Assembly (NCBI GenBank): GCA_003868215.1
Contig: QWDQ01000031.1
Span: 62,001 to 126,000, forward strand
Reading direction: 5' to 3'
DNA length: 64,000 nt
Origin: Pseudophaeomoniella oleicola
Taxonomy: Eukaryota > Ascomycota > Eurotiomycetes > Phaeomoniellales > Phaeomoniellaceae
The position numbers were made by a program, and so were the translations under genes. A model generated the notes under the pieces. It searched no databases. It saw only the letters and a program-made list of their open reading frames with translations, and had not been told where the DNA came from. Of the stretch, positions 2,611-43,398 are shown piece after piece; the first letter of the stretch is position 1; every line of letters starts with the position of its first letter.

Positions 2611-5600
2611 TTAGTTGAGGAAGCCTTTGCAACCAGTCGAACCACAGAGGCAAGGAATTCGGTCATCACTGTCCCATTCTCTTTCGAACTTGTAATCGTA
2701 CGTGAGTTCTTCATCTGGAAAATGAGTATTAGCGTCCGTGCGCATATAAAGCAAGTAGGTGGTTGTGAGTAGACATACCTCGTTCAATATCTCGAAGGGC
2801 GTAGATGACGATTCTCTTCGTATGCTCCACCCGGATGATCTTGGCTGTACAATTAGGTGTGCAGCTATGATTAATGAACCGTGCGATACCACCCTTTTTA
2901 GTTGCGTCGATGACGGTTCCTTCGTCAATTCGGAAGAGATAACTACTTCCAATGCCACTTCGAAGATACTGCTGCTCCCGGATGTCCGCAACCTCTTGTC
3001 GAATCTTTTCGCCTACATACTCGATGATCATGTCATTTGCAGATATGTTTTCCATGGCATACAACCCCCAGTTGTGAATGGCTGATCTAGCAAATCTGAC
3101 AGGCTTCTTTCGTGCCTTCAGTTGATTGAACTTCGCAACAACGACGTCCTCATTGCCCAGGGTGCCGAGTATTTCCAACTCGCGATTCACCGTATTCGCC
3201 ATACGACGACTCTCGACACGAGTTGATCTAGAAGACGATTTGGAGATATGTTTAGCCGCTTCAACCTTGGCAGCTTCAACTGCTGCTGCCTTCGGATCCT
3301 TCTTTGCTTTAGCTTCGCGTTCTTCCCTGGCTTTTTGCACCTTGATTCGATGGGGCAGATATTTCGACTTCTCAGACTCCAAGATCTTTTTGATAGGCTG
3401 GGATCTGGCACAGCCTGAGGCATTCTCCACGTAGTAGCCGGGTATCTGAGAAAGCCCACGACTGACACCGATTTCTCCAAAGTTGAGAGTCTTAATGCCT
3501 TTCTGAATATCTGCCCATTCGGATGCATCGCTTTCAATAATTACAGGCTCATCTAGGAGTGCACGGCGAGCAATAGCAAGATCATTCTCGTCTCTGAGCA
3601 CGTGTTGCCAACCGTCAATGTCCAAAAGAAGCTCGTCATCTTCGAGAATGCCCTTTTGGGGGCGACCTCGGGAGAAGCCTTCTTCGAGAGGAACCTCGGG
3701 TTCCGAGGGAGCTGTCACTTCCATCTTCGGTACTTCCGCCTCCTTGACTGATGCCTCTTCCGGTGCCTCTGAACTACGCATCGAACCCGCATCCTCATCG
3801 ACAAGGAGTTCCGGTTTCGTCTTCTTCTTCGTCTTCGCTTTCTTGGGTTGCGCTTTCGCTATCCGTTCAGCGGATGGCTTCACATCCTCCATACGCACAT
3901 CCGCAGGTTCCCTTTTGACAGTATGTATCCTGATACCGAAAAGCTCCTCATCTTCCGCGGCTTCTAAAGCGGCAAGCTTTGCCTGATAATCGGCACGTCT
4001 TTTGACTGAGTTCTTGGGGTTCTTGATGCGTTCTTTGAGAATCCTGATCATTTCTGCATTTTTGTTGAGTATGGCTTGGGATTTCAATCTCACAGGTTGT
4101 TCAGGCACCGTCTCGGCTTCGACGATCGGTTCATTAGTCGCTTCAGTGATATTATCAACCTCCTGTTGCGCATCATCTTTCGCTTGTGGCAGCGGTAGCT
4201 CTTTTAATAGCTCCCCTGATGGCTCTCTAGATTGCTCTTTCGAGAATCCCATAGATGGCTCCCTGGATGATTCTCTTGACATCTCTTTCTCGGGTAACTC
4301 TTGTGCTTCCTCCTCATCAGACTCGACAGAAGTCATGCTCATCCGGCTCATAGGACGGGATTCTTGCTCCTCAGTGTCTCTCCCGAAAGGCGTCCTTGAA
4401 TCATTATCTGAGTCATCTTCATCCTCAAACTGAGCAAGCCTGTGGTATAACGGTCGTACAACTCGCTTGGGAGGGGCGGGGCGCTTCCGACGTTCATCTG
4501 CGAATCCAGCAAGGCGTCGCTCAGGTCCCTGCTTCTTGCCTATCCTTGGCAAAGCATGCAGATTGACATTGGAATGACTCAACGGCTTTCGTGCGTAAGC
4601 ATTGGGAGTCCCTACTGGTGGCGTATCCTCAAGGGAGATGGTAGTTCTACTACCCTTTTCGGGATCCGCTATGCCAAGTTTCTGCCTCTTCGCCACATGC
4701 CTGTCGGGATCGAGGTAAGTGTATAGAGATGGAGCAACAATACGCGATTTCACATCTTCCAGTAATTTGTCTCTGATCTCCCTCATGACAAGCTCGACGA
4801 CTCCTCGAGAGGGATCAAGATCCTTAGCCCTTTGCTTTTTCTCCTCCTCTATGTCAGCCGCTCTCTCTCTACGCAGTCGATCTGCAGTTTGCCGGTCAAG
4901 CTTTCCACCTTCTGGAGTTGGACTCCGTTCATATTTAGGGTTGCCATATTGTTGGCATTCCATGTTCATGACATAAGTGAACAGAGGCTCCATGTGGCAC
5001 GCACTAAAGCATCGTGTGCATTCATCTTCCCCACGCTTCGAGTCTTCAAAAGTGACGTAGTAACCTGTTTTGTCGACCCTCACAGATCGCCAGTCGAAAC
5101 TCCGAAGACGCTTTTTCAGATGTGGAATAGTCGTACCAAGAACTGGTACATAGCAGTGCGCAATGAAAACATAGGGCTCTCGCTTCAAGGTGTCTAAGAC
5201 AGGGCTTTCCTCAATAACAGACTGTACTTGCGGCTTCGCAGCCACTTGCATCAGATCCGGTGGTTGTGGGGTCTGATGTATCTGATGTATCTGATGTGTC
5301 TGATGTGTCTGAAACGTCTGCGGGGGCTGAGAGGTATTAGTAGGTCGTATATGCGGCTTGAACGAAGGTCCTTTTGGTGCTGTCGGTGGTGCCCTATTCT
5401 CCTTCTTCACTTCTGCTGCTGCTGAAGCAGCTGGCTGGCCAGCCTCCTTCTGTTGAGCCGCAATTTGTTTTTCGACAAATCGTCTAGCCAAGCTGCCATC
5501 GCTATCGAGGGTCACACGGACCGCGTGTAAGCCGACTCTAAGCTCCTTCTTGCTCTCATAGTAGGCATGTCTTGCTGCTAAGATAGCTGGCATCGGCTCA

Positions 5601-6598
5601 CCTCCTTGGAACGATCGACTGTCCTTGTACTTGATCACACATATGCCCAGGAAGCGCCCTGTGGTCGGGTTTGTTTTATTGCTGACGTCTGCAATTTCGC
5701 CGAAGGTCGCAAACACGGCTGTGACTTGCGAGATCGGTGAGAGAGGGTCGAACCCAGTCACGATGACTTGCGTTGGTGGTCCCGGACCGATTGACACTGC
5801 TGGATCGTACGGCCAAGGCTTCAGTACATACGGCGCCGGGCGAAGTTTCGACTTCTGATGGCTTCCACCACCTCTTTGGTAATGAGTGATCGAACGTCGT
5901 GGGTCCCTCGGAGCGATGTCGTCGGTAGGATTTGCGCCGAAGTCGACATACTGAACTTTCCTTTTCTTGTCTTTACTTGTTTTCTTGTCTAGCTCAGGAT
6001 CGTAAACAACCCTGCATCCCTTTACAACTAATCCTGTCGCACGAGCGGGTAATCTAGGTGTCGGTGGCGTATGTTGAGGAGTAAGTGCACACTCTGCAAT
6101 AATACCATTGTTGTCGCCAGTGGTTGGAAATGTCAACGGGGTGGGAATTGTAGAAGGGCTGACGAGTTTCGTTGGTGGTGACGAATCAACGGTAGTTAAG
6201 GGCGTAAGTGTATGCGATTGTGTTCCGTTCACGCCGCGACTTATGCCCGTGGGATTTGCTGAACTAAAGATCGACGATACAGTTGTCGTAGACGCCTCTG
6301 AAGGTACGCCATTTGGTTCTGTAAGAGAAGAAGATTCACGCTGGTCAAAGTTCGAAGTGAATCTATGTCCTGAGTTTGACAGGGCGCTGACGGCCTTGGT
6401 AGACTCATGAGGCCGAGGTGACGCTGAATAAGAATCCGCGCGACCGTTCAAGTAAGGCGAGGATGTTCCAGGGCGCGGACTTGATGCAGCAGAATCGCGA
6501 CTAACGCGACGATCCTGGGCAGCCTTGGACTTCTTTGACTGAAGAACCGAAGGCGCGGTAGGAAAGAAGTCGGCAAAGCCTCTGGAGGCGCGCGACAT
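2611..6598 (-). CDS. SET1: Histone H3 lysine-4 methyltransferase, COMPASS catalytic subunit
   Basis: The model is two exons, 6598-2779 and 2714-2611, giving 1307 residues. The 64-nt intron (donor GTATGT, acceptor TTTCCAG) interrupts the SET domain between ERG and DEELTYDY; without it the post-SET motif is lost. Domains in order: a disordered Ser/Pro-rich N-terminus; an RNA-recognition motif at about 277-365; a second RRM-like Set1-associated region at about 475-555; a long charged linker; the nSET region; a SET domain over the last 140 residues with [10 protein letters not shown] (cofactor and zinc binding) and LTYDYKF; and the post-SET cysteines [13 protein letters not shown]. Set1 methylates H3K4 at active genes in the nucleus. 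The order matches the family from yeast to human. A short HQT/HQI repeat near residue 435 is low complexity. The start ATG has no in-frame rival upstream. Confidence 0.96.
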
Positions 6599-9264
6599 GT
6601 TTGATGACGCTACCTCAGATCTAAAGAGCGCTTCACCATCCTCGGAAGAGTAGAACCTATCTCACAGTAACATCTGGTACGACGTTCACCAACACGAGGG
6701 GTGACAGTGTCCTGGATACTGAGCAAGGTGATCAGGTTGTTCCCAATTTCGAAAGATGGGCGTGGGGAGGAGACGCGGTAAGTGAGAGAATGAGCGCTAG
6801 AGAAGTCGTTCTGGCACAACGAGATGACGACTTATTTCGAATCTCGAATGAACATCGGTGTCGCAATATCCAGGCGAGAGGGATATTCTACGCGCAACTC
6901 GAGATGTGGAATCACGAGGCCGGGAATTCTGGTAGACCTAATCCCTTGTCGTCGGGTGAAGATTTCAGGTTCACTTACTTTGGAGGATCGCAGCGGGACT
7001 GTCCTTTTTGGGGCATTCTAAATTTCCCCGAGTCAAATAACCTCTAAGATTGCGTTTGTTAAATCCTCCCTTTTTCTCAACTCCATGGCATAACCATAAA
7101 AACGCTTTCAGACAGCTTCTGCATTATTTGTCTGCTGCTGCTGAATCCACCCATCAAATCGGCGCTTTATGCTGCGCGCTGAGGGTCTCTTGCTGCAGAT
7201 GACTATCCCTTCCTTCAGCTCCGGCCGTAGACCGCAATGCGCCGCTACGATCGCACATTGCGCCTTTCGACTACGCACTACCAATGTACTCAACTGCGAA
7301 AATATCATGCCTGTGCTTGAATGAGGATGTGCCTATTCTTGAGCACCTTCATATGTCTCATTTCCACCTTTGTTGACCTATCCTTCCGATGGACCTGCTC
7401 GGATACTCGATTATGTCCCAAACGATCGTCCATTTTAGCTGCGCACATAGATTGAAGGCTGGTAAGTCTTCTTGCGATGGGTGTCGCACTGTTCGTTCAG
7501 ATAGGGTTGGGTGGGCGTTAGGCGCAAAAGGACTATTTTCCTGCGAGACCCAAGAGGCCAATATCGTGCATCAATTTTGTTTTGTGATTCTTTTCTAGGC
7601 CTCCAGCTTGAGAGATGTTGAAAGGGCTCGCTCCTCTAGTGAATATAGCACTATTTTCATAGACTCGTGCAACGCCGTGGATCGCGGGGCTACGGAGAAT
7701 TGCAACAACGGCTGTACAGTGGCTGCTCAGGTTGCATAGAGTGAAGTCGAGATATGGTCCTGTAGATTGTAAGCTCCGGGTGTCGGAACGAGAGAGCTGT
7801 CAAGTACGGGTATGTCTCATTTACACGGGTTCCCACCATACTATTAAATCTATAGCTCTGTATTACTACTATTCACGGGTTTCCATATGCTGCCCTTGTA
7901 GGTGGGTCATGATTTCAGTGTCCGTCACGCCCTTTCGAAGGCCTTGTGGATGCCTCACGGTATTGAAACATTGAGCATTCGGACCTGCGAGCCTGTAGGC
8001 TCTGCTAACAACTTAAGCAGAGACTTCCTTGGTAGCATGAGTTGATGTCTCTCGTGAAAGAGGGGGGAGCAAAATGTTGCTCCATTCTTGATCCATGGAA
8101 AAACACTGATAACAATGCAATATGAAGGACGTTGAAAAGTCTGAGAACAAATTCACTAGTGGCATCAAATGCAATTGGATTACCACGGTTTGGTCAAGGT
8201 ACAGATGTGAGGAAAATAACGGGGAAGTGACTGTTTTCCATACGATGACATGCTGGATATCCGGGCGAACGATTGGTTCCAGGTGTACTTTCACAACAGG
8301 TTATTACCTACTGAATATACATAGCCTCCGGGATAGTTCGTAAGGTGGATGATGTAGGCATGATGGCGGTGCAGCTCGGAAGTCTGCACTATCACCACGA
8401 GAGGGTCATACCGTAGAAGTTACTATTGTTAGTTTGTGCATACGTAGGTACTGTGATACATATGTATAATACGTAGTACTAGTGGCTGCTGAAGCCACAG
8501 AGCAGCTTTCCCCTGCAGCTGCAACAAGGCAAAGCTGTTTGGTGGGGACTTGATTCACTTGATCTGAAAGGCATTGCCAATTGCAATCCGTCAATACCTT
8601 ACCGGTACCCGAGACAAACCTGAAGATCATCACTTTCCAGGAGAGCACAAAGAAACAGATCGGTGGCTAGAGACCTAGGTAGTCAGGAGACTGACCTTCC
8701 AAGCGATTGGTATATCTCCTGTATGCAGGGTAGTTGCTTTGTTGTGAGATTCATTGTTTATTGTTGATTGTACATATGTGTTCGTGCTGTTGACCACTAA
8801 TTCACTAGGGGCACAAGGCGGTACCAAATCGCCTACTCTGGACTTAATATTCAGGGCGCCAGGCGTGTCAAAGTGGCGTCTTTTATGGTTTAACTAGGGT
8901 TATCCTCAGGCTTGTTGACGCTTTGTTCGTTCCCAAGCTCCATTCGTTGCCGTGTCGCCGTCATAATCTAAACAATCGAAACCGCTGCTCCAAATAAAGC
9001 GCTGTCTCACTTGTCGCAGCTTGAAGGCTCGGTCACCCTCAACTTCCTGCCCTTGAAATAAACATTGTCTCCCTTCTCATATCATCTCTCTCACTTTCGC
9101 TTCTGTCTCATTGTTGTCGTATTGTACCTCTGCAGTCTCTGTTACGTAGGATTGAATTCAACTTCCTACCCCCAGAACCCCCACCTCCACATTGAAGAGG
9201 CCAGAACACCATCGCAGAAAGGAGAGCATTCCTACAGGCTCATTGCTGATCAGATACCGACACT
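6599..9264. other. Intergenic, divergent SET1/GFA1
   Basis: 2.7 kb between two divergent starts. It has no convincing coding frame and no tRNA-like structure that I could see. TACGTA motifs occur near 8443 and 8472. The last 200 bp before GFA1 is pyrimidine-rich with no upstream ATG after about 9210, typical of a leader. Confidence 0.65.
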
Positions 9265-11567
<2,303 letters not shown>

Positions 11568-18470: not shown

Positions 18471-19428
18471 TTATCCTCCTTCTCTTAGAGGCTTGCTGGG
18501 GATCTTGCTCGCCCACGCCACGACAGTATAGCCATTGACTGCAATTTTGCCCTCCTCGTTGGGCTTCACATCCTCGCCGTTCAGCGCGTCCGAGACTCTC
18601 GCCTTAACTCTCTGTCGAATTCGACATTAGTCTAATTACCAAATACACTTCATGCAAAGAGTTGAGAGTACTCACCTCAAGTTCTTCTCCTTGCAAGACT
18701 GCGATCTGACTCAATGTGTGAAATCTGTCCCAGATCTCTTCCTTTGTCAACCATGTCTCGAAAGCGAATTTGGCCTCTCCAAGCGGCAAGCCGAACAGAG
18801 GGTCTGTAGATTTGATCACTCTCCACGGCGTATTTCCCAACTGATCGTCGAAGACTTTTTTCCATTGCTCATGCCTGAATCTTGGTACTCCGTCGTCAAG
18901 ATCCCAAACTATGTCCCTCAGCTTATGGGCCCATCCATTTCCAATATCCCAATGCTTTGGCGAATTGTACCACTCGATATTCCAGATCATGCCGAGTACA
19001 CCTCCCGGTTTTATGACTCTGGAAATCTCCTCCAACGCTTCCATGGTCGCGAACCAGTGAAAAGCTTGGCTCGCAATGACGCCATCGACACTTTCGGTCT
19101 CGACCGTACTCATGCGCTCGGCCAATCCGTTCACGACTTTGACATTTTGTAGTTGTTTGGCCTCGAGCTGCTCACGCATGCCGTCGTGCGGTTCCACAGC
19201 GATTATATTGTATTTTTCCGGTCGCTCAGCTAATAGCGCTGTGAATTTCCCTGTGCCAGCGGCAAGATCGATGATGGTAGCGCCCTCAACTGCGGCGACA
19301 TGAAGTTCCGACAGAAGATGCGAGACGGCTTCCGCTGGGTATGTCGGACGGTGTTTATCGTATGACACCGCATTAGCGAACCCGGATAGAGCGAGGGGAT
19401 TGATTCCAGACCCCGACTGCGAAGGCAT
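18471..19428 (-). CDS. Class I SAM-dependent methyltransferase, Tmt1/Crg1-like
   Basis: Two exons, 19428-18676 and 18611-18471, giving 297 residues. Motif I of the Rossmann fold is IIDLAAGTGKF (about 51-61). Next come the acidic AVEPHDGM (ribose-binding loop) and VIKPGGVLGMIWN. The N-terminal FANAVSYDKHRPTYP is typical of the fungal Methyltransf_11 group that includes yeast Tmt1 (trans-aconitate methyltransferase) and Crg1. The substrate cannot be told from sequence. The 64-nt intron (donor GTGAGT, branch CTAAT) adds the C-terminal 47 residues, including a beta-strand-like GKIAVNGYTVVAWASKIP that also appears in relatives. An in-frame TTG upstream would extend the protein, but the ATG at 19428 fits better. 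Confidence 0.88.
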
Positions 19429-19961
19429 ATTCGATGACCGGGGGGTGTCAGTACCTGTCTGTGTCTTGTGTCTGTCTGCTTGTGAATCTACAGCAGCTGT
19501 TTTGTGGAGCGTGGGGGATATGTCATACTGTGGGGCGCCGGGAGGACCCAATTCCAGGTTGTTATGATATAATCTGTGATCTTGAAATTCGTGTCTGTAT
19601 GAACCATAAACCTCAATAATAGTTCCCCCCGGTACTGCTAATCAACCATGCGTTACGACTGCGCCCATCTTCACATCCTGGAGGCTTCTGTTGCAGATTC
19701 CTTCGGCGCGTACATGTTCATGAGTAAGGTAGCGGTCATCACCATGCCCCACCGAGTCAGGAACCGATCATATGTTTCACCGCCTTCGTATACTGCCGGC
19801 AGAACTTAGGAAATTTGTTCCTCTCTGCCCCTCATGGCGAATCGTACCACCTTCAGTGGCGCAAGAACGTAGTATATTATCTATTCAAGGTGTTCGCAAA
19901 CTTGTCGCTGGGGGGTGCTTTTTCTATTCGGATTCGTGACCATTCGTCGGGTATTGCAAAT
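19429..19961. promoter_or_regulatory. Divergent promoter region, methyltransferase/MRI1
   Basis: 533 bp between two divergent starts. It contains no coding sequence I can support. The frame that opens upstream of MRI1 at 19815 is leader, not protein, since conservation starts at the ATG at 19962. Confidence 0.5.
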
Positions 19962-27103: not shown

Positions 27104-28810
27104 TCAGTACCACGACGTCTTGGTCAGTGAGGGGTTCGACAGCTGGGAGACTGTGCAAGATATAACCGAAAATGACCTGTGAGTGAACCTAGCACAATAT
27201 GTCAATGACTCGTTGTTACTGATAAACATATCAGAGAAGCTCTCAACTTCAAGCTCGGCCACCGGAGAGTAAGTTTTGGCCATTGCTGGCATCGGCTCTG
27301 CGTCGCCCAAGACACATGCTGACTTCTCCAAAAGAAATTGCAGAGGTACATCGCTTCTCAACGTGGCATCAACTTAGATCAGCCACTAGCCTCCACCTAT
27401 CCGGATGTAGCTGGGGAGAAGGGTGGCGAAGGGTTTGCCATAACCACTGGTGAAGGTGTCGCTGACCGAGGTTCTGCGCCAGTTGAGACGAAGCGCAAGT
27501 ACCGGCGGCATCCCAAACCAGATGAAAATGCTCCCGAGCGACCACCGTCGGCGTATGTCCTGTTCTCGAACGCAATCCGGGAAGAGATCAAAGGACAGGA
27601 CCTGTCGTTCACTGATATCGCCAAGCTAGTTGGTCAAAGGTGGCAGTCGTTAAGTGCAGCGGAACGAGAGCCATACGAGTCTCGCGCAGCAAGTCTCAAG
27701 GAGGCATATAATCAACAGTTCAACGAATACAAGAAGAGTGAGCAGTACCGAGAATATGTGCAGTATCTCACCGAATTCAAAGCCAAGCATGGCGGAGGTG
27801 GTGCTGAAGGAAAGCGACCCAGGTTGGAGGATGAAACTAGTGGAGGTAGCTCTGGCAGTCCTATTGTTCCAACTTTGTCAACCCTCTCTTCAACCCTCTC
27901 TTCGACGAAGTCTCCAGAGCTCTCCGAAACCCCACAACAATCAAGAGTGTCCGAACAGACAGGATCGACTCCAACCGCGGCCCGACTACATGCACGCTCT
28001 GGCCCGGGGTCGCCATCGAACAGTGCTTCTGCGCAGCTGCCCCAGTCCAATATTAGTGAAGGCAGATCGTCCAGTACCCCGAACATTGAATTGTCTCCAT
28101 CACATGGAGGTATAGTCCGTGACACGGGCCGTATCCCTTCGCTTTCGGGGCAGATTCCTCCTCACGACATTGTGAGCAGCTATTTCGAGATGTCTACGAG
28201 ACCTCAGATATCTGATTCCGCATCTTCGCATCCACTTCCCACGCAACATCTGGCAGTGAATAGTAGTGGATCGAATCTGCCTCCGTCGAAGCCCATGCTT
28301 TTACATTCGGACACGACTGCATCCAGCGTATCATCTGTCCCGTCGACTCTATCTTACGGAAGTGGTTCTACTGCTCCTTCTCAGACGCCAATGACACCCC
28401 GGGACGAACCTTGGACTCCGCGTCCAGATCCTTACAATGCGCAGCATAGTCCATGGGATATACCAAGACCAGTCCATCCTCCCTTCAAATCACCGCAAGG
28501 GTCATCCATACCCTCCTTTCAATCATGGAAGCTGGGAGACCGTGGCTTTGCGCATCCTGCGGACCAAGGTCTGCGCCTGCCACCCCCCAACACTCCTAGT
28601 TCTACATCGGTTTCTCACGACTATCATCCTCTCTCCCTGAGACCTCAGGCACGACCGCCACCCCCTTTTCAAGAACAGAGATTACCGGCGTTACCTAGAG
28701 GCGAACAAGTTCAAGGAAGCGCGCAGACAGAAAGACAAGATGAAGGCCATGATAGCCCGCTGGACCTTCTTGCACGAGCTGTGGATGCCCACAACCGTGA
28801 CAGGCGTTGA
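27063..28810 (+). CDS. SAM-domain plus HMG-box nuclear protein
   Basis: Three exons: 27063-27178, 27235-27268 and 27335-28810, giving 541 residues. Residues 1-65 form a SAM-like helical domain: LAGILALLGLDQYHDVLVSE, then GFDSWETVQDITENDL, then LGHRRKLQRYIASQRG once both short introns are removed. A linker with basic TKRKYRRHPKP leads to an HMG box at about 117-190 (ERPPSAYVLFSNAIREEI, then FTDIAKLVGQRWQSL). The rest is Ser/Pro-rich and disordered and ends in LDLLARAVDAHNRDRR. HMG boxes bend DNA; SAM domains mediate self-association. I infer a chromatin or transcription protein. The box lacks the mating-type-specific context, so I do not call it a MAT gene. The start at 27063 is set by the SAM helix; an overlapping out-of-frame upstream ATG is noted separately. 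Confidence 0.85.
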
Positions 28811-37286: not shown

Positions 37287-38382
37287 ATGGTGCGTGATCG
37301 CTTGCATCAGTCCGCTCTACACCTCAGTTGCTAATCGATTTCCTCTGCAGACCTCTATTGGTACAGGCTATGACCTGTCTAACTCAGTCTTCTCCCCCGA
37401 TGGTCGCAATTTTCAGGTGAGGATCGAGCATGCTAAAACTACGAACTGTCATTCTGACTCGTTTTCAGGTGGAATATGCGGTCAAAGCAGTCGAAAATGG
37501 AGGCACAGCAATAGGTATCAAGTGCAAGGATGGCGTCGTTCTGGCGGTAGAGAAGATCATCACAAGCAAGCTACTCAAACCGGGCACAAATAAGAGAATA
37601 TCAACAGTCGACAGGAATGTTGGCATTGTAAGCGCGACTGCGACAGACATCCGATTCAAAGCGCTGACAGTGTCTCTAGGTTTCCTCAGGCTTGGTACCA
37701 GATGGCAAACACTTTGTGTCAAGAGCGCGAGATGAAGCTTCTTCATGGCGGAACACTTATAAGACTCCAATTCCAATCCAATCACTTGCAGGACGGCTGG
37801 GCAGCTACGTACAAGCATACACCCTCTACTCGTCGGTGCGGCCATTTGGTATCACTTCAATCATCGGTGGTTGGGATTCCGAGGCAGAGCTCCCAGTCGA
37901 TGGGCAAGTCGGCCAGGGTCCGACTAAGGGAACGGGGGGTAAGGTCACGGGTGGTAAAACAGGTGGTCCTGGCTTGTACATGATTGAACCGAGTGGTCTC
38001 TACTGGGTAGGTGCAATCCGCAGAGCTAAGCGACCATCAATTACTGACTCGATCCCAGGGTTACTATGGTGCAGCAACTGGTAAAGGACGGCAAGCAGCC
38101 AAAGCGGAACTCGAGAAGCTCGACCTACCATCAGGCAGTCTATCACTAAAACAAGGTGTTTTTGAAGCTGCAAGGATAATCCATGTTGCTCACGAGGACA
38201 GCAAGGACAAGGAGTTCGAGTTGGAGATCACCTGGATTAGCTCTTTGGACGGCCCTACGAAGGGCAGGCATGAAGAAGTGCCGAAAGAGTTGCTGGAGGA
38301 GGCAGAGGCAGCAGCCAAGAAGTCCTTGGAATCCGATGACGAAGAGGAAGAAGGCGGCGAGGGAGAACAGATGCAGGAGTGA
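37287..38382 (+). CDS. PRE10: 20S proteasome alpha7 subunit
   Basis: Five exons: 37287-37289, 37351-37416, 37469-37627, 37680-38006 and 38059-38382, giving 292 residues. The first coding exon is the ATG alone, followed at once by a GTGCGT donor. The N-terminal proteasome alpha signature is [19 protein letters not shown] joined to [11 protein letters not shown]. Later motifs are [22 protein letters not shown] and [19 protein letters not shown]. The acidic tail ([16 protein letters not shown]) is typical of alpha7/PSMA3, which carries casein kinase 2 sites. The subunit sits in the outer ring of the 20S core. Introns are 52-61 nt. The GWD region contains a Gly/Lys-rich insert of about 28 residues ([20 protein letters not shown]). 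Confidence 0.96.
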
Positions 38383-38660: not shown

Positions 38661-39575
<915 letters not shown>

Positions 39576-40103: not shown

Positions 40104-40502
40104 TTATGACTGGACCTCTTCGGTCTGAGCTTCGCGCTTGTTCTTCTTGCACATGGATGTGATTAGACACTTGTGCGGATCGGGCTCTGGTTCGGCCAAT
40201 GGTTCTGGTTCTGGTGCTGGTTCTGGGTCCGGCACTGGCTCTGGCTCAGGGGCAGGGGCAGGAGCAGGATCAGCCTCCCGTTTGTTCTTCTTGCACATGG
40301 ATGTGATAAGACACTTGTGCGGATCGGGCTCTGGGTTTGCTTCAGGAGCAGCAATTGGCTCGGGTGCTGGTTCTGGCATAGCCTCCCGTTTGCACATGAA
40401 TGCGCGGAGACAACCTCTATGCGGGGTTGGCCCTGGGGTAGGGTGTGCCGAGACGCCGAAAGCAAGCAGGGCCGTAGCGATGGCAACGGAGAGGAGCTTC
40501 AT
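40104..40502 (-). CDS. Secreted Kex2-processed peptide precursor, alpha-factor-like layout
   Basis: One exon, 132 residues. Residues 1-19 are a signal peptide (MKLLSVAIATALLAFGVSA). Three cysteine-pair peptides follow: HRGCLRAFMC (28-37) and two copies of HKCLITSMC (62-70, 110-118). Each is followed by a dibasic site, KREA for the first and KKNKREA for the others, fitting Kex2 cleavage after KR (or KK) and Kex1 trimming. The three leaders before each peptide have even length (8, 22 and 34 residues), and every second residue is Ala or Pro, so a Ste13-type dipeptidyl aminopeptidase could trim each exactly to the His. This is the architecture of fungal alpha-pheromone precursors. The cores are C-x5-C without the Trp or Gly-Gln seen in known Pezizomycotina alpha-pheromones (C-x6-C). 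It may be a divergent pheromone, another signalling peptide, or a Kex2-processed repeat effector. It is not near a visible mating-type gene. Confidence 0.85.
   Translation of the reverse strand: MKLLSVAIATALLAFGVSAHPTPGPTPHRGCLRAFMCKREAMPEPAPEPIAAPEANPEPDPHKCLITSMCKKNKREADPAPAPAPEPEPVPDPEPAPEPEPLAEPEPDPHKCLITSMCKKNKREAQTEEVQS
40129..40190 (-). repeat. Peptide repeat unit 3 of the precursor gene
   Basis: About 60 bp encoding the PDPHKCLITSMCKKNKREA block. It is nearly identical in DNA to the unit at 40273-40334; I count two differences in the core 54 bp. Confidence 0.85.
40273..40334 (-). repeat. Peptide repeat unit 2 of the precursor gene
   Basis: Second copy of the same block. The proline-rich spacer between the two units is not repeated, so the peptide units are what is conserved. 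Confidence 0.85.
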
Positions 40503-41990
40503 ATCGGTATGCTGAGAGTGTCGTAATGGCCAGGCGTTCTCGACAATATGACGTCTCGAGAGATGTGGGAGCTAGATTGAATGATGATGGCTCGGTTAGA
40601 AAAAGAGTGTGAGATCGTAGAGAAAGGAGCACAAGGCACGCACGCAGGCCATGACGCCTTTATAGTTGTGCCTTAGCCAGTGTCCAAAGAGAACGATACA
40701 GATCCGGTCTTTGACAAACAGGACATAGGAAAATAAAGGAAAAAGAGGAGAGGAGTGTCATCGAGATCAGGCCATCCAGCAAGTCTGTCGATTGAAGCGA
40801 ATCCAACGGCAAGCTTGGTTGCCTAGTCCTTGAGAGAGCATAATGGAGAAGCATGAAGAAGTTCATGATATGTCTTGTGACAGAATAGCCATAGTCAATT
40901 CCATATACCACTCTACCGGAAACAGATGTCCAGGCAGATCTTTGCTTCGACACTCGTTGACGATTAGTTTTGGTAATTGCAAAGACCGAGCTATACAAAG
41001 CTGCGTCTAGCATTGAGTACAGCTTTTGGTTCTCAATAAGCACGATATAAGGCTGAAAATGTATATCAATAAGCTCCAATGAAATGGATACATCAGCGCT
41101 AAACCGAATCGAGAAAATCGCCAAACGTCTGCTCACCCAACATCACTGATCATCTTCGACACAGTCAAAGGACCGATGACAGCTTCTTACTATCGGCGTG
41201 AGGCTCTGAAGGTTGTCCATAAATTATGGAGAAGAAAGCACAAGCGGACGGCACAGGTGGCGCTAGGTCCTCCGCTGAGAGGCCGGGGGTTATCCTCGAA
41301 TAATCACAGTCGATACTCTCACGCGTCTCATTTTTTAGAGTGAGAGGTGATCAATTCCATGCATTCGTCCTCCCTTGTTGCACGGCCGGGTCGTATCCGC
41401 TTGAGAGGTACCTTAACCAGCTGTCTTCGTGGTAGGATTGCAAAGAAAGGAATCACACAGGCCTTGTAGAGCGTCTCCCAAAGGCAACTCACAAGTTGAA
41501 GGCTGTAGTACCATCACAGCAAGGAGACGCTGATGATGTATGAGATCTTAATCAACCCATCAGCAGAAGCAGACAGTACTCATCTTGCGTCGGGATATTA
41601 TCGGCGTTTGGATGGGACAATTTAGCAGAGGTATAGACAATGAAAAGAGAAGGGATTTGCAGGCAGCCGTAGTATGAGAGATACATCGCGATGACTCCTT
41701 GAGGCCATCACAGCTTTGCTGAAGACACGAGACTGTCAAGGTATATAGATGTTATCGACGACTGCACCTTCCGCGATGTCGGCAAGTCGAGTTGACGTTG
41801 CCGATAGCCGTTGCCTTATCGAGTACTAGCGTGAAATTGTCAATTGGCAAGAAGAAGCAAGCAACTTCATGGACGACCTTCATCCGCAAACCTGAGTTGC
41901 ATATCAGCGACGTGCAAAAGCTCATTAGTCCTTTCACGCTCAGGTCTTCGTAAGAGCTTTTGACACTCTTGTAGTCGCTACGTCTTCAAA
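40503..41990. promoter_or_regulatory. Divergent region, peptide precursor/IDH1
   Basis: 1.5 kb between two divergent starts. A 158-codon minus-strand frame at 40660-41136 lacks an ATG at its start and protein-like features. I see no other gene; the region must contain both promoters. Confidence 0.5.
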
Positions 41991-43398
41991 ATGTCTTTGA
42001 GATCCATGAGGCCTGCGCAGGTTCGTCGCGACATCCCGCTTGAGAAGATTTGCGACTGATCATGTTGTCCAGACCCTGCTGCGAGCTACTAGAGCTTCGC
42101 CAGTATGCGCTTCCAACACTCCTGCGATGGCTAGAAGTACGTTATACGAGCCGTCCCTCGACTTTCTTCCACGGTGATATACTAATATTTACTCAGCCAT
42201 GGCTACCGTGCAATCCGATATCTTCAAGCCAACCAAGTACGGCGGGAAATACACAGTCACTCTCATTCCAGGTACGACAGACACTCTCGGATTGGCGTAC
42301 TGCCTCTGTTTTGGATTAGGACTACGTTGACACATGGGACTTGCAGGTGACGGCATCGGTGCCGAGGTTGCGGAATCTGTCAAGACGATTTTTAAGGCCG
42401 ACAATGTCCCCATCGAATGGGAACAAGTCGATGTCACCGGTGTTGACAGCGGCAACAAGCACTCTGAAGAACTTTTCCGCGAGTCGATCTCTTCTTTGAA
42501 GCGCAACAAACTTGGTCTCAAAGGTATCCTTCATACCCCCATTGAGCGATCTGGCCATCAATCTTTCAATGTCGCTCTCCGACAAGAACTCGATATTTAC
42601 GCTTCGGTGGTCCTCATCAAGAACATTCCAGGCTATCAAACCCGCCATGACAATGTCGATCTTTGCATTATCCGTGAGAACACTGAAGGCGAATATTCTG
42701 GTCTCGAGCACCAGTCCGTCAACGGAGTCGTGGAATCTTTGAAGATCATCACACGTGCGAAGTCAGAACGTATTGCAAAGTTCGCATTTAGCTTCGCTCT
42801 TGCCAACAACAGGAAGAAGGTCACTTGCATTCACAAGGCCAACATCATGAAACTGGCTGATGGTCTATTCCGTAACACCTGCAAGAAGGTGTCCGAGGAC
42901 TACCCAAGTCTTGAATATAACGATATGATTGTCGATAACGCCTCTATGCAAGCTGTTTCTCGGCCACAGCAGTTTGATGTTATGGTTATGCCAAACTTGT
43001 ATGGTGGTATCCTCTCCAACATTGGAGCTGCTTTGGTCGGTGGTCCAGGTGTTGTTCCAGGTGCCAACATGGGTCGTGACGTCGCTGTTTTCGAGCCAGG
43101 ATGCCGTCACGTCGGTTTGGATATCAAGGGCAAGGACCAAGCCAACCCAACCGCCATGATTCTCAGCGGTAGCATGCTTTTGAGACATCTTGGTTTGGAC
43201 GACCATGCCAACCGAATTTCAAAGGCTGTTTATGATGTTGTCAGCGAAGGGTAAGCGGAGAATATCCCTTAACCGTTTTCTTCGGATCATGATACTAACA
43301 AGTCCAACAGTCAAACCAGGACGAGAGATATGGGCGGTAACGCTAGCACTCACGAATTCACCCGTGCCGTCCTCGACAAGATGGAAGCTGCTCTGTAA
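41991..43398 (+). CDS. IDH1: NAD-dependent isocitrate dehydrogenase, subunit 1
   Basis: Five exons: 41991-42020, 42073-42136, 42197-42271, 42347-43250 and 43311-43398, giving 386 residues. Exons 1-2 give a basic mitochondrial presequence (MSLRSMRPAQTLLRATRASP). The mature enzyme starts near SDIFKPTKYGGKYTVTLIPG and GDGIGAEVAESV. Motifs: LGLKGILHTPIERSGHQSFN, LDIYASVVLIKNIPG, IRENTEGEYSGLEHQ, IVDNASMQ and NLYGGILSNIGAALVGGPG. The LKGILHTPIERSGHQSFNV block is the one typical of the regulatory Idh1 subunit rather than Idh2. The octamer of Idh1/Idh2 oxidises isocitrate to 2-oxoglutarate in the TCA cycle in the mitochondrial matrix. Introns are 52-75 nt; the last has a TACTAAC branch site. Confidence 0.95.

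Follow-up and report, generated by a model that had tools for sequence, protein, structure and literature searches.

A probable alpha-type pheromone precursor with a diverged two-cysteine core at the ppgA position of Pseudophaeomoniella oleicola

The window analyzed here, meaning the whole stretch of 64,000 nucleotides, lies on contig C38 of a genome of 26.1 Mb in 112 contigs. A neighbouring gene for a synaptojanin-type phosphatase has its best match in Phaeomoniella chlamydospora (68% identity), which points to a relative of that fungus and not to the species itself. The Phaeomoniellales are placed in the subclass Chaetothyriomycetidae of the Eurotiomycetes. The genes and features on which the analysis is based are the following.

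2729..6661, minus strand: SET1 (N-SET, SET_assoc and SET domains), syntenic marker, A. fumigatus AFUA_6G06335
9603..11318, plus strand: GFA1 open frame (SIS domains, glutamine amidotransferase), syntenic marker, AFUA_6G06340
37287..38382, plus strand: proteasome subunit, orthologue of human PSMA3 and yeast Pre10, introns placed by eye, syntenic marker, AFUA_6G06350
38661..39575, minus strand: RIB4, 6,7-dimethyl-8-ribityllumazine synthase, start placed by eye, a neighbour for which synteny is not claimed
40104..40502, minus strand: alpha-pheromone-like precursor gene, a single open frame of 132 aa from the first in-frame ATG
40446..40502, minus strand: putative signal-peptide-like start, residues 1-19 MKLLSVAIATALLAFGVSA, cleavage site placed by eye
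40392..40421, minus strand: core 1, HRGCLRAFMC, residues 28-37, after the 8-aa leader HPTPGPTP and followed by KR-EA
40320..40385, minus strand: XA/XP leader of core 2, 22 aa, residues 40-61
40293..40319, minus strand: core 2, HKCLITSMC, residues 62-70, followed by KKN-KR-EA
40176..40277, minus strand: XA/XP leader of core 3, 34 aa, residues 76-109
40149..40175, minus strand: core 3, HKCLITSMC, residues 110-118, followed by KKN-KR-EA
41991..43398, plus strand: IDH1, NAD-isocitrate dehydrogenase subunit 1, ends placed by eye, syntenic marker, P. lutzii PAAG_00856

The frame at 40104..40502 and its 132 residues agree with the original prediction, to which the minus strand is now added. Three cores, HRGCLRAFMC once and HKCLITSMC twice, had been described as followed by dibasic sites with Glu-Ala after Lys-Arg, and the sequence bears this out. 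It can be observed that a Kex2 dibasic site (KR-EA) accompanies each of the three cores, two of these sites being preceded by KKN, with the dibasic residues located at KR38, KK71/KR74 and KK119/KR122. Leader 1 (residues 20-27, 8 aa) directly follows the putative signal-like start, which was recognised by eye and by a hydropathy maximum of 2.47 over 12 residues. The claim that Ala or Pro occupies every second residue of the leaders of 8, 22 and 34 residues also held, for 32/32 dipeptides (4/4, 11/11 and 17/17 even positions in leaders 1, 2 and 3). The chance of such a pattern, calculated for each leader from its own composition, is 0.014, 1.1e-4 and 2.6e-6, respectively. The rule is broken in the 9-residue tail of the precursor (1/4). 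Within the 64-kb window, read in six frames, no dibasic pair outside the two spacers before cores 2 and 3 is followed by four XA/XP dipeptides or more, and the same pattern gave two short matches in 204,506 bases from other loci of the same genome, some of which overlap. The two 20-codon copies EPDPHKCLITSMCKKNKREA differ at 4/60 bases. The synonymous share of possible single changes is 19%, and the probability of an all-synonymous outcome is about 0.001-0.004. Because all four differences between the copies are synonymous, a translated, selected peptide is supported. Neither HKCLITSMC nor HRGCLRAFMC displays an aromatic residue before Cys, Gly-Gln or the C-x6-C spacing, C-x5-C being found instead, and the precursor lies outside the canonical subgroup with aromatic-C-x3-G[Q/E]-x-C cores. 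With repeats parted by Kex2 sites and presumed secretion, it fits the description of KEPs.

Searches by sequence were conducted at several levels. Comparison of the precursor with 5.8 billion proteins, a database that includes a Phaeomoniella protein, returned 20 matches at E up to 1, none being a fungal precursor by name, and the nine that were read were all acidic-proline low-complexity sequences. No family for the precursor was found in Pfam or NCBIfam; PARP, the only Pfam match below E 0.001, was rejected as a match of composition far below its own cut-off. The hhalign alignment to the PpgA profile was confined to residues 1-24, with a probability of 60, and BLASTP with A. fumigatus PpgA (P0151) aligned residues 1-39 at E 0.13. 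At the level of sequence, homology to PpgA appears limited to the N-terminus, and is not demonstrable for the whole precursor. Upstream of the gene, neither TGAAACA (0 found, 0.2 expected) nor a MAT1-1-1 motif known from Penicillium was present (0 found, 0.04 expected). Among the papers listed in the literature searches, none dealt with a Phaeomoniella pheromone, a result of little weight as evidence of absence.

The position of the gene was compared with that of known pheromone genes, using gene orders for A. fumigatus and P. lutzii that derive from the locus numbers and annotations printed in the papers cited. In A. fumigatus, AFUA_6G06335 is an H3K4 methyltransferase (PMC5883321), AFUA_6G06340 is gfa1 (PMC4551469, PMC9977105), and AFUA_6G06350 and 06360 are annotated as proteasome alpha type 3 and “Mating alpha-pheromone (PpgA)”, respectively, with one intergenic region separating them (PMC8227032). 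For P. lutzii, the ORF that encodes the pheromone with the core WCTRPGQGC overlaps with PAAG_00855 (PMC3464258), and PAAG_00856 is IDH subunit 1 (PMC4471430, PMC7712234). For A. nidulans, AN5793 is given as proteasome alpha type 3 and AN5794 under chitin biosynthesis, both of which fit the synteny. It should be noted that the human and yeast schemes each apply “alpha type 3” to a subunit of their own, a small ambiguity in the proteasome match. AFUA_6G06370, AN5790 and AN5791, presumably IDH and ppgA neighbours, were left out of the position argument. Within the window, RIB4 is located between PSMA3 and the precursor gene, and GFA1 lies 26 kb from PSMA3; therefore, the block is partly rearranged. 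The SET1-GFA1-PSMA3-IDH1 block is conserved, not identical, and the precursor gene occupies the conserved ppgA position, as observed in the window and as the locus numbers in the papers define it.

The genome also contains the partners expected of a pheromone. Ste2 gave one genome match (E 3e-28), whose frame runs open for 467 aa once three GT-AG introns are spliced out. Its residues 1-329 match yeast alpha-factor receptor structures (E 3e-4), and a simple hydropathy scan separated six hydrophobic regions in residues 58-282, a seventh falling below threshold. Two exon matches to Ste3 were located at one place in the genome. One match each was obtained for the Kex2-type P domain, with one internal stop that may be an intron, and for a Ste13/DPPIV-type protease, with an open frame of 940 aa. 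An HMG-box gene has on one side SLA2, recognised as an ANTH/I-LWEQ gene, and on the other a gene of the Exo_endo_phos type that is assigned here to APN2.

L069:9143-9901 / L070 (G000:C30:63241): HMG-box gene in the SLA2-APN2 interval

This gene carries the stretch HPDYQYAPRKPSEKKRR, typical of MAT1-2-1, and is probably a MAT1-2 idiomorph. No match to the MAT1-1 alpha box was found in the genome, in a search where the controls were equally silent. Two ORFs lie on the SLA2 side of the HMG-box gene, at L069:8652-9194 (+) and L069:7766-8488 (-). A second HMG-box protein, of 495 aa, is encoded away from the MAT locus, at 27323-28810 (+) of the window.

Whether a canonical alpha-pheromone gene exists elsewhere in the genome had been raised together with the original prediction. 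All genome-wide matches to the strict pattern T[AGT][CGT]-Cys-x3-Gly-Gln-x-Cys were read, numbering 20 against 13 for the reversed control. All 20 were devoid of a second core in their own 3-kb locus and of an in-frame secretory start; within the scope of this pattern the genome presents Ste2 and no precursor-like canonical core. A dibasic pair within 15 residues downstream was observed in five of them (L036, L038, L044, L053, and L054). The most suggestive, L044 (WCYRNGQSC...KR), is out of frame in a 567-residue ORF and open for only 7 residues upstream, although a gene split by an intron is conceivable there. The broad pattern C-x3-GQ-x-C produced 145 genome matches against 75 for the reversed control, and no repeated precursor was present among the 52 of the 145 read in context. 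L055, in which KR directly precedes the core, was rejected on a stop 11 residues upstream and a lack of dibasic sites in the next 45 residues. C-x3-G[Q/E]-x-C was absent from the 64-kb window in any frame, GE cores having been searched in the window only, and the Pleosporales core PYGxPxG had 0 genome matches. A genome query with A. fumigatus PpgA was empty, in a search that had no positive control and is uninformative. As judged from the assembled sequence, no convincing pheromone of a known type was found in the genome; a gene that is split by an intron or has a single core copy might have been missed, and the assembly may be incomplete.

Published cores were used as a probe for precursors to compare, and this retrieved 23 proteins, 19 with a recognisable core, including Aspergillus PpgA. 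The retrieved precursors include F-C, Y-C and L-C starts and one G-E core. The earlier description of known pheromones by a W-C start and Gly-Gln was thus too narrow, since other cores are known, while its statement that the present cores lack both is correct. Unbroken XA/XP dipeptides from KR to the core number 4 in P0141, 10 in P0144 and 13 in P0145, and the cores behind the runs of 10 and 13 are canonical. The PpgA proteins of Aspergillus have 0-1 such dipeptides ahead of the core, and the F-C types none; a long leader therefore does not characterise the nearest relatives in general. An earlier view that unlike cores set a precursor apart was dropped, as 7/19 precursors have unlike cores, which in these seven vary less or accompany canonical copies. 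The Aspergillus PpgA precursors (P0151 of A. fumigatus, P0150, and P0155) resemble the present one in the MKLLS start, the first core close after the signal-peptide-like start, repeated 9-residue two-Cys cores, Kex2 Lys-Arg sites, and, by locus number, the gene neighbours. Two of the three present cores have nine residues, as in A. fumigatus WCHLPGQGC. In contrast, the Aspergillus core WCHLPGQGC (C-x6-C, PGQG) differs from H-[KR]-(G)-C-L-x3-M-C (C-x5-C), and the XA/XP leaders of the present precursor are much longer. When HKCLITSMC is end-aligned on WCHLPGQGC, Leu4 and Cys9 may be read as coinciding, with the first Cys shifted by one place.

Further known systems were considered. Paracoccidioides PBalpha (WCTRPGQGC) was shown to act through its own Ste2-type receptor in yeast (PMC3464258). 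It is similar in secretion and Kex2 processing, both presumed for the present precursor, and in being encoded at a locus numbered next to IDH1, and unlike in its single canonical core and a gene with an intron. In the Pleosporales the alpha-pheromone core is PYG[L/M]P[I/V]G, a precedent for complete core change within one order, this core itself being unmatched here (PMC6339444). A two-Cys group of Dothideomycetes is described in the same paper and may contain a closer match. Relative to KEPs in general, the present precursor adds the STE13 signature, which within the Ascomycota is as a rule found in alpha-type pheromones alone (PMC6339444). Neither the retrieved precursors nor the literature passages covered, among which the two-Cys Dothideomycete cores do not figure, contain a core that combines C-x5-C with a lack of Gly-Gln.

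Taken as a whole, the gene is very probably an alpha-type pheromone precursor, the positional orthologue of ppgA/ppg1, whose core has changed so far that its sequence is no longer recognisable. This is favoured because the gene is at the ppgA position, has the Kex2 and XA/XP architecture, and is accompanied by Ste2 and the proteases in a genome where no convincing rival of known type was found. Among the diverged mating pheromone, new peptide hormone and repeat effector offered by the original prediction, the first is thereby preferred. The peptides would probably represent a mating signal with a rewritten sequence, in which nearly every hallmark of known pheromones is lost. We infer their secretion, cleavage, disulfide formation, receptor binding and activation, and role in mating. 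Maturation is proposed along the pathway described for Kex2, Kex1 and Ste13 in PMC6339444. The signal peptide would be removed after Ala19, Kex2 would cut after Lys-Arg, and Kex1 would trim the basic C-termini. A Ste13-type dipeptidyl aminopeptidase would then strip the XA/XP pairs and halt at His-Lys or His-Arg. Copies 2 and 3 would end in Cys if the KK ahead of N is cut, and in CKKN if it is not. Predicted are a single HRGCLRAFMC and two copies of HKCLITSMC, with HKCLITSMCKKN in place of the latter where Kex2 leaves KK uncut. Each peptide would probably form a disulfide ring, and the calculated monoisotopic masses of the disulfide forms are 1032.455 for HKCLITSMC, 1402.688 for HKCLITSMCKKN and 1190.526 for HRGCLRAFMC. 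Their proposed target is the Ste2 of partners of the opposite mating type.

Three other explanations were weighed. The gene could encode a hormone or self-signal processed by Kex2 and Ste13 and used outside mating, either a different KEP after loss of ppgA or ppgA itself, retained for a task unrelated to sex, for instance chemotropism or the control of germination. A core without recognisable sequence in common with PpgA is compatible with this, as is the existence of STE13-signature KEPs where alpha-pheromones are unused, for example in Basidiomycota (PMC6339444). However, a different KEP in the very interval of ppgA would be a coincidence, the Ste2 frame is intact, and no other convincing ligand was found, which leaves a non-mating signal unlikely. 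Two further candidates, a repeat effector processed by Kex2 and a cyclic RiPP similar to ustiloxins and dikaritins, are considerably harder to credit. Their precursors likewise carry repeats with Kex2 sites (PMC7329392), and a gene with a methyltransferase domain lies about 20 kb away, at 18604-19641. Nevertheless, the cores contain no Tyr, contig C38 has none of the 22 genome matches listed for UstYa (PF11807), and precursors of those kinds lack the STE13 signature (PMC6339444); both were rejected. A chance ORF in low-complexity DNA, with the plus-strand ORF at 40153-40515 or no ORF being real, was likewise rejected as extremely improbable, since the low complexity of the spacers and the compositional nature of the single Pfam match are opposed by the even-position Ala/Pro rule, the exact stop at His-Lys or His-Arg, Kex2 sites at every core, the synonymous copy differences and the gene position. 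Separately, several UstYa (PF11807, DUF3328) matches are clustered elsewhere in the genome (G000:C1:473049-480549 and 536845-542083; C22:364492-369388; C71, C72, and C85), and these possibly represent RiPP gene clusters.

Returning to the alpha-type pheromone precursor, precursors of this kind, complete core change (Pleosporales) and unlike cores within one precursor are known, and the core itself is what is new. A wider proposal is put forward tentatively, as conceivable but short of probable: that the pheromone code of the Phaeomoniellales was replaced wholesale by a ligand that lacks Gly-Gln, has the form H-[K/R]-(G)-C-L-x3-M-C and closes a C-x5-C ring, together with a co-evolved Ste2; that one precursor delivers two clearly different ligands, HRGCLRAFMC and HKCLITSMC/KKN; and that other Chaetothyriomycetidae perhaps harbour similar rewritten pheromones, overlooked so far, in the PSMA3-IDH1 interval. 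The co-evolution of ligand and receptor has a textbook example in pheromone-receptor pairs, which also help to keep species apart. In the present case the ligand would have changed almost completely, with gene position, receptor and processing code retained, providing a clean, testable pair. Missing alpha-pheromones may be looked for between PSMA3 and IDH1 instead of by sequence. Two of the proteins examined are themselves uncommon. P0148, a metagenome protein of 193 aa, is an unusual precursor with CFGKGCLALW/CLGKACLALW, many LWKR or LWKK repeats and EA leaders. P0143, from Choiromyces venosus, is another diverged alpha-like pheromone, with Cys-less cores such as WHARAGAPMAIW and WTGRPGRGAY.
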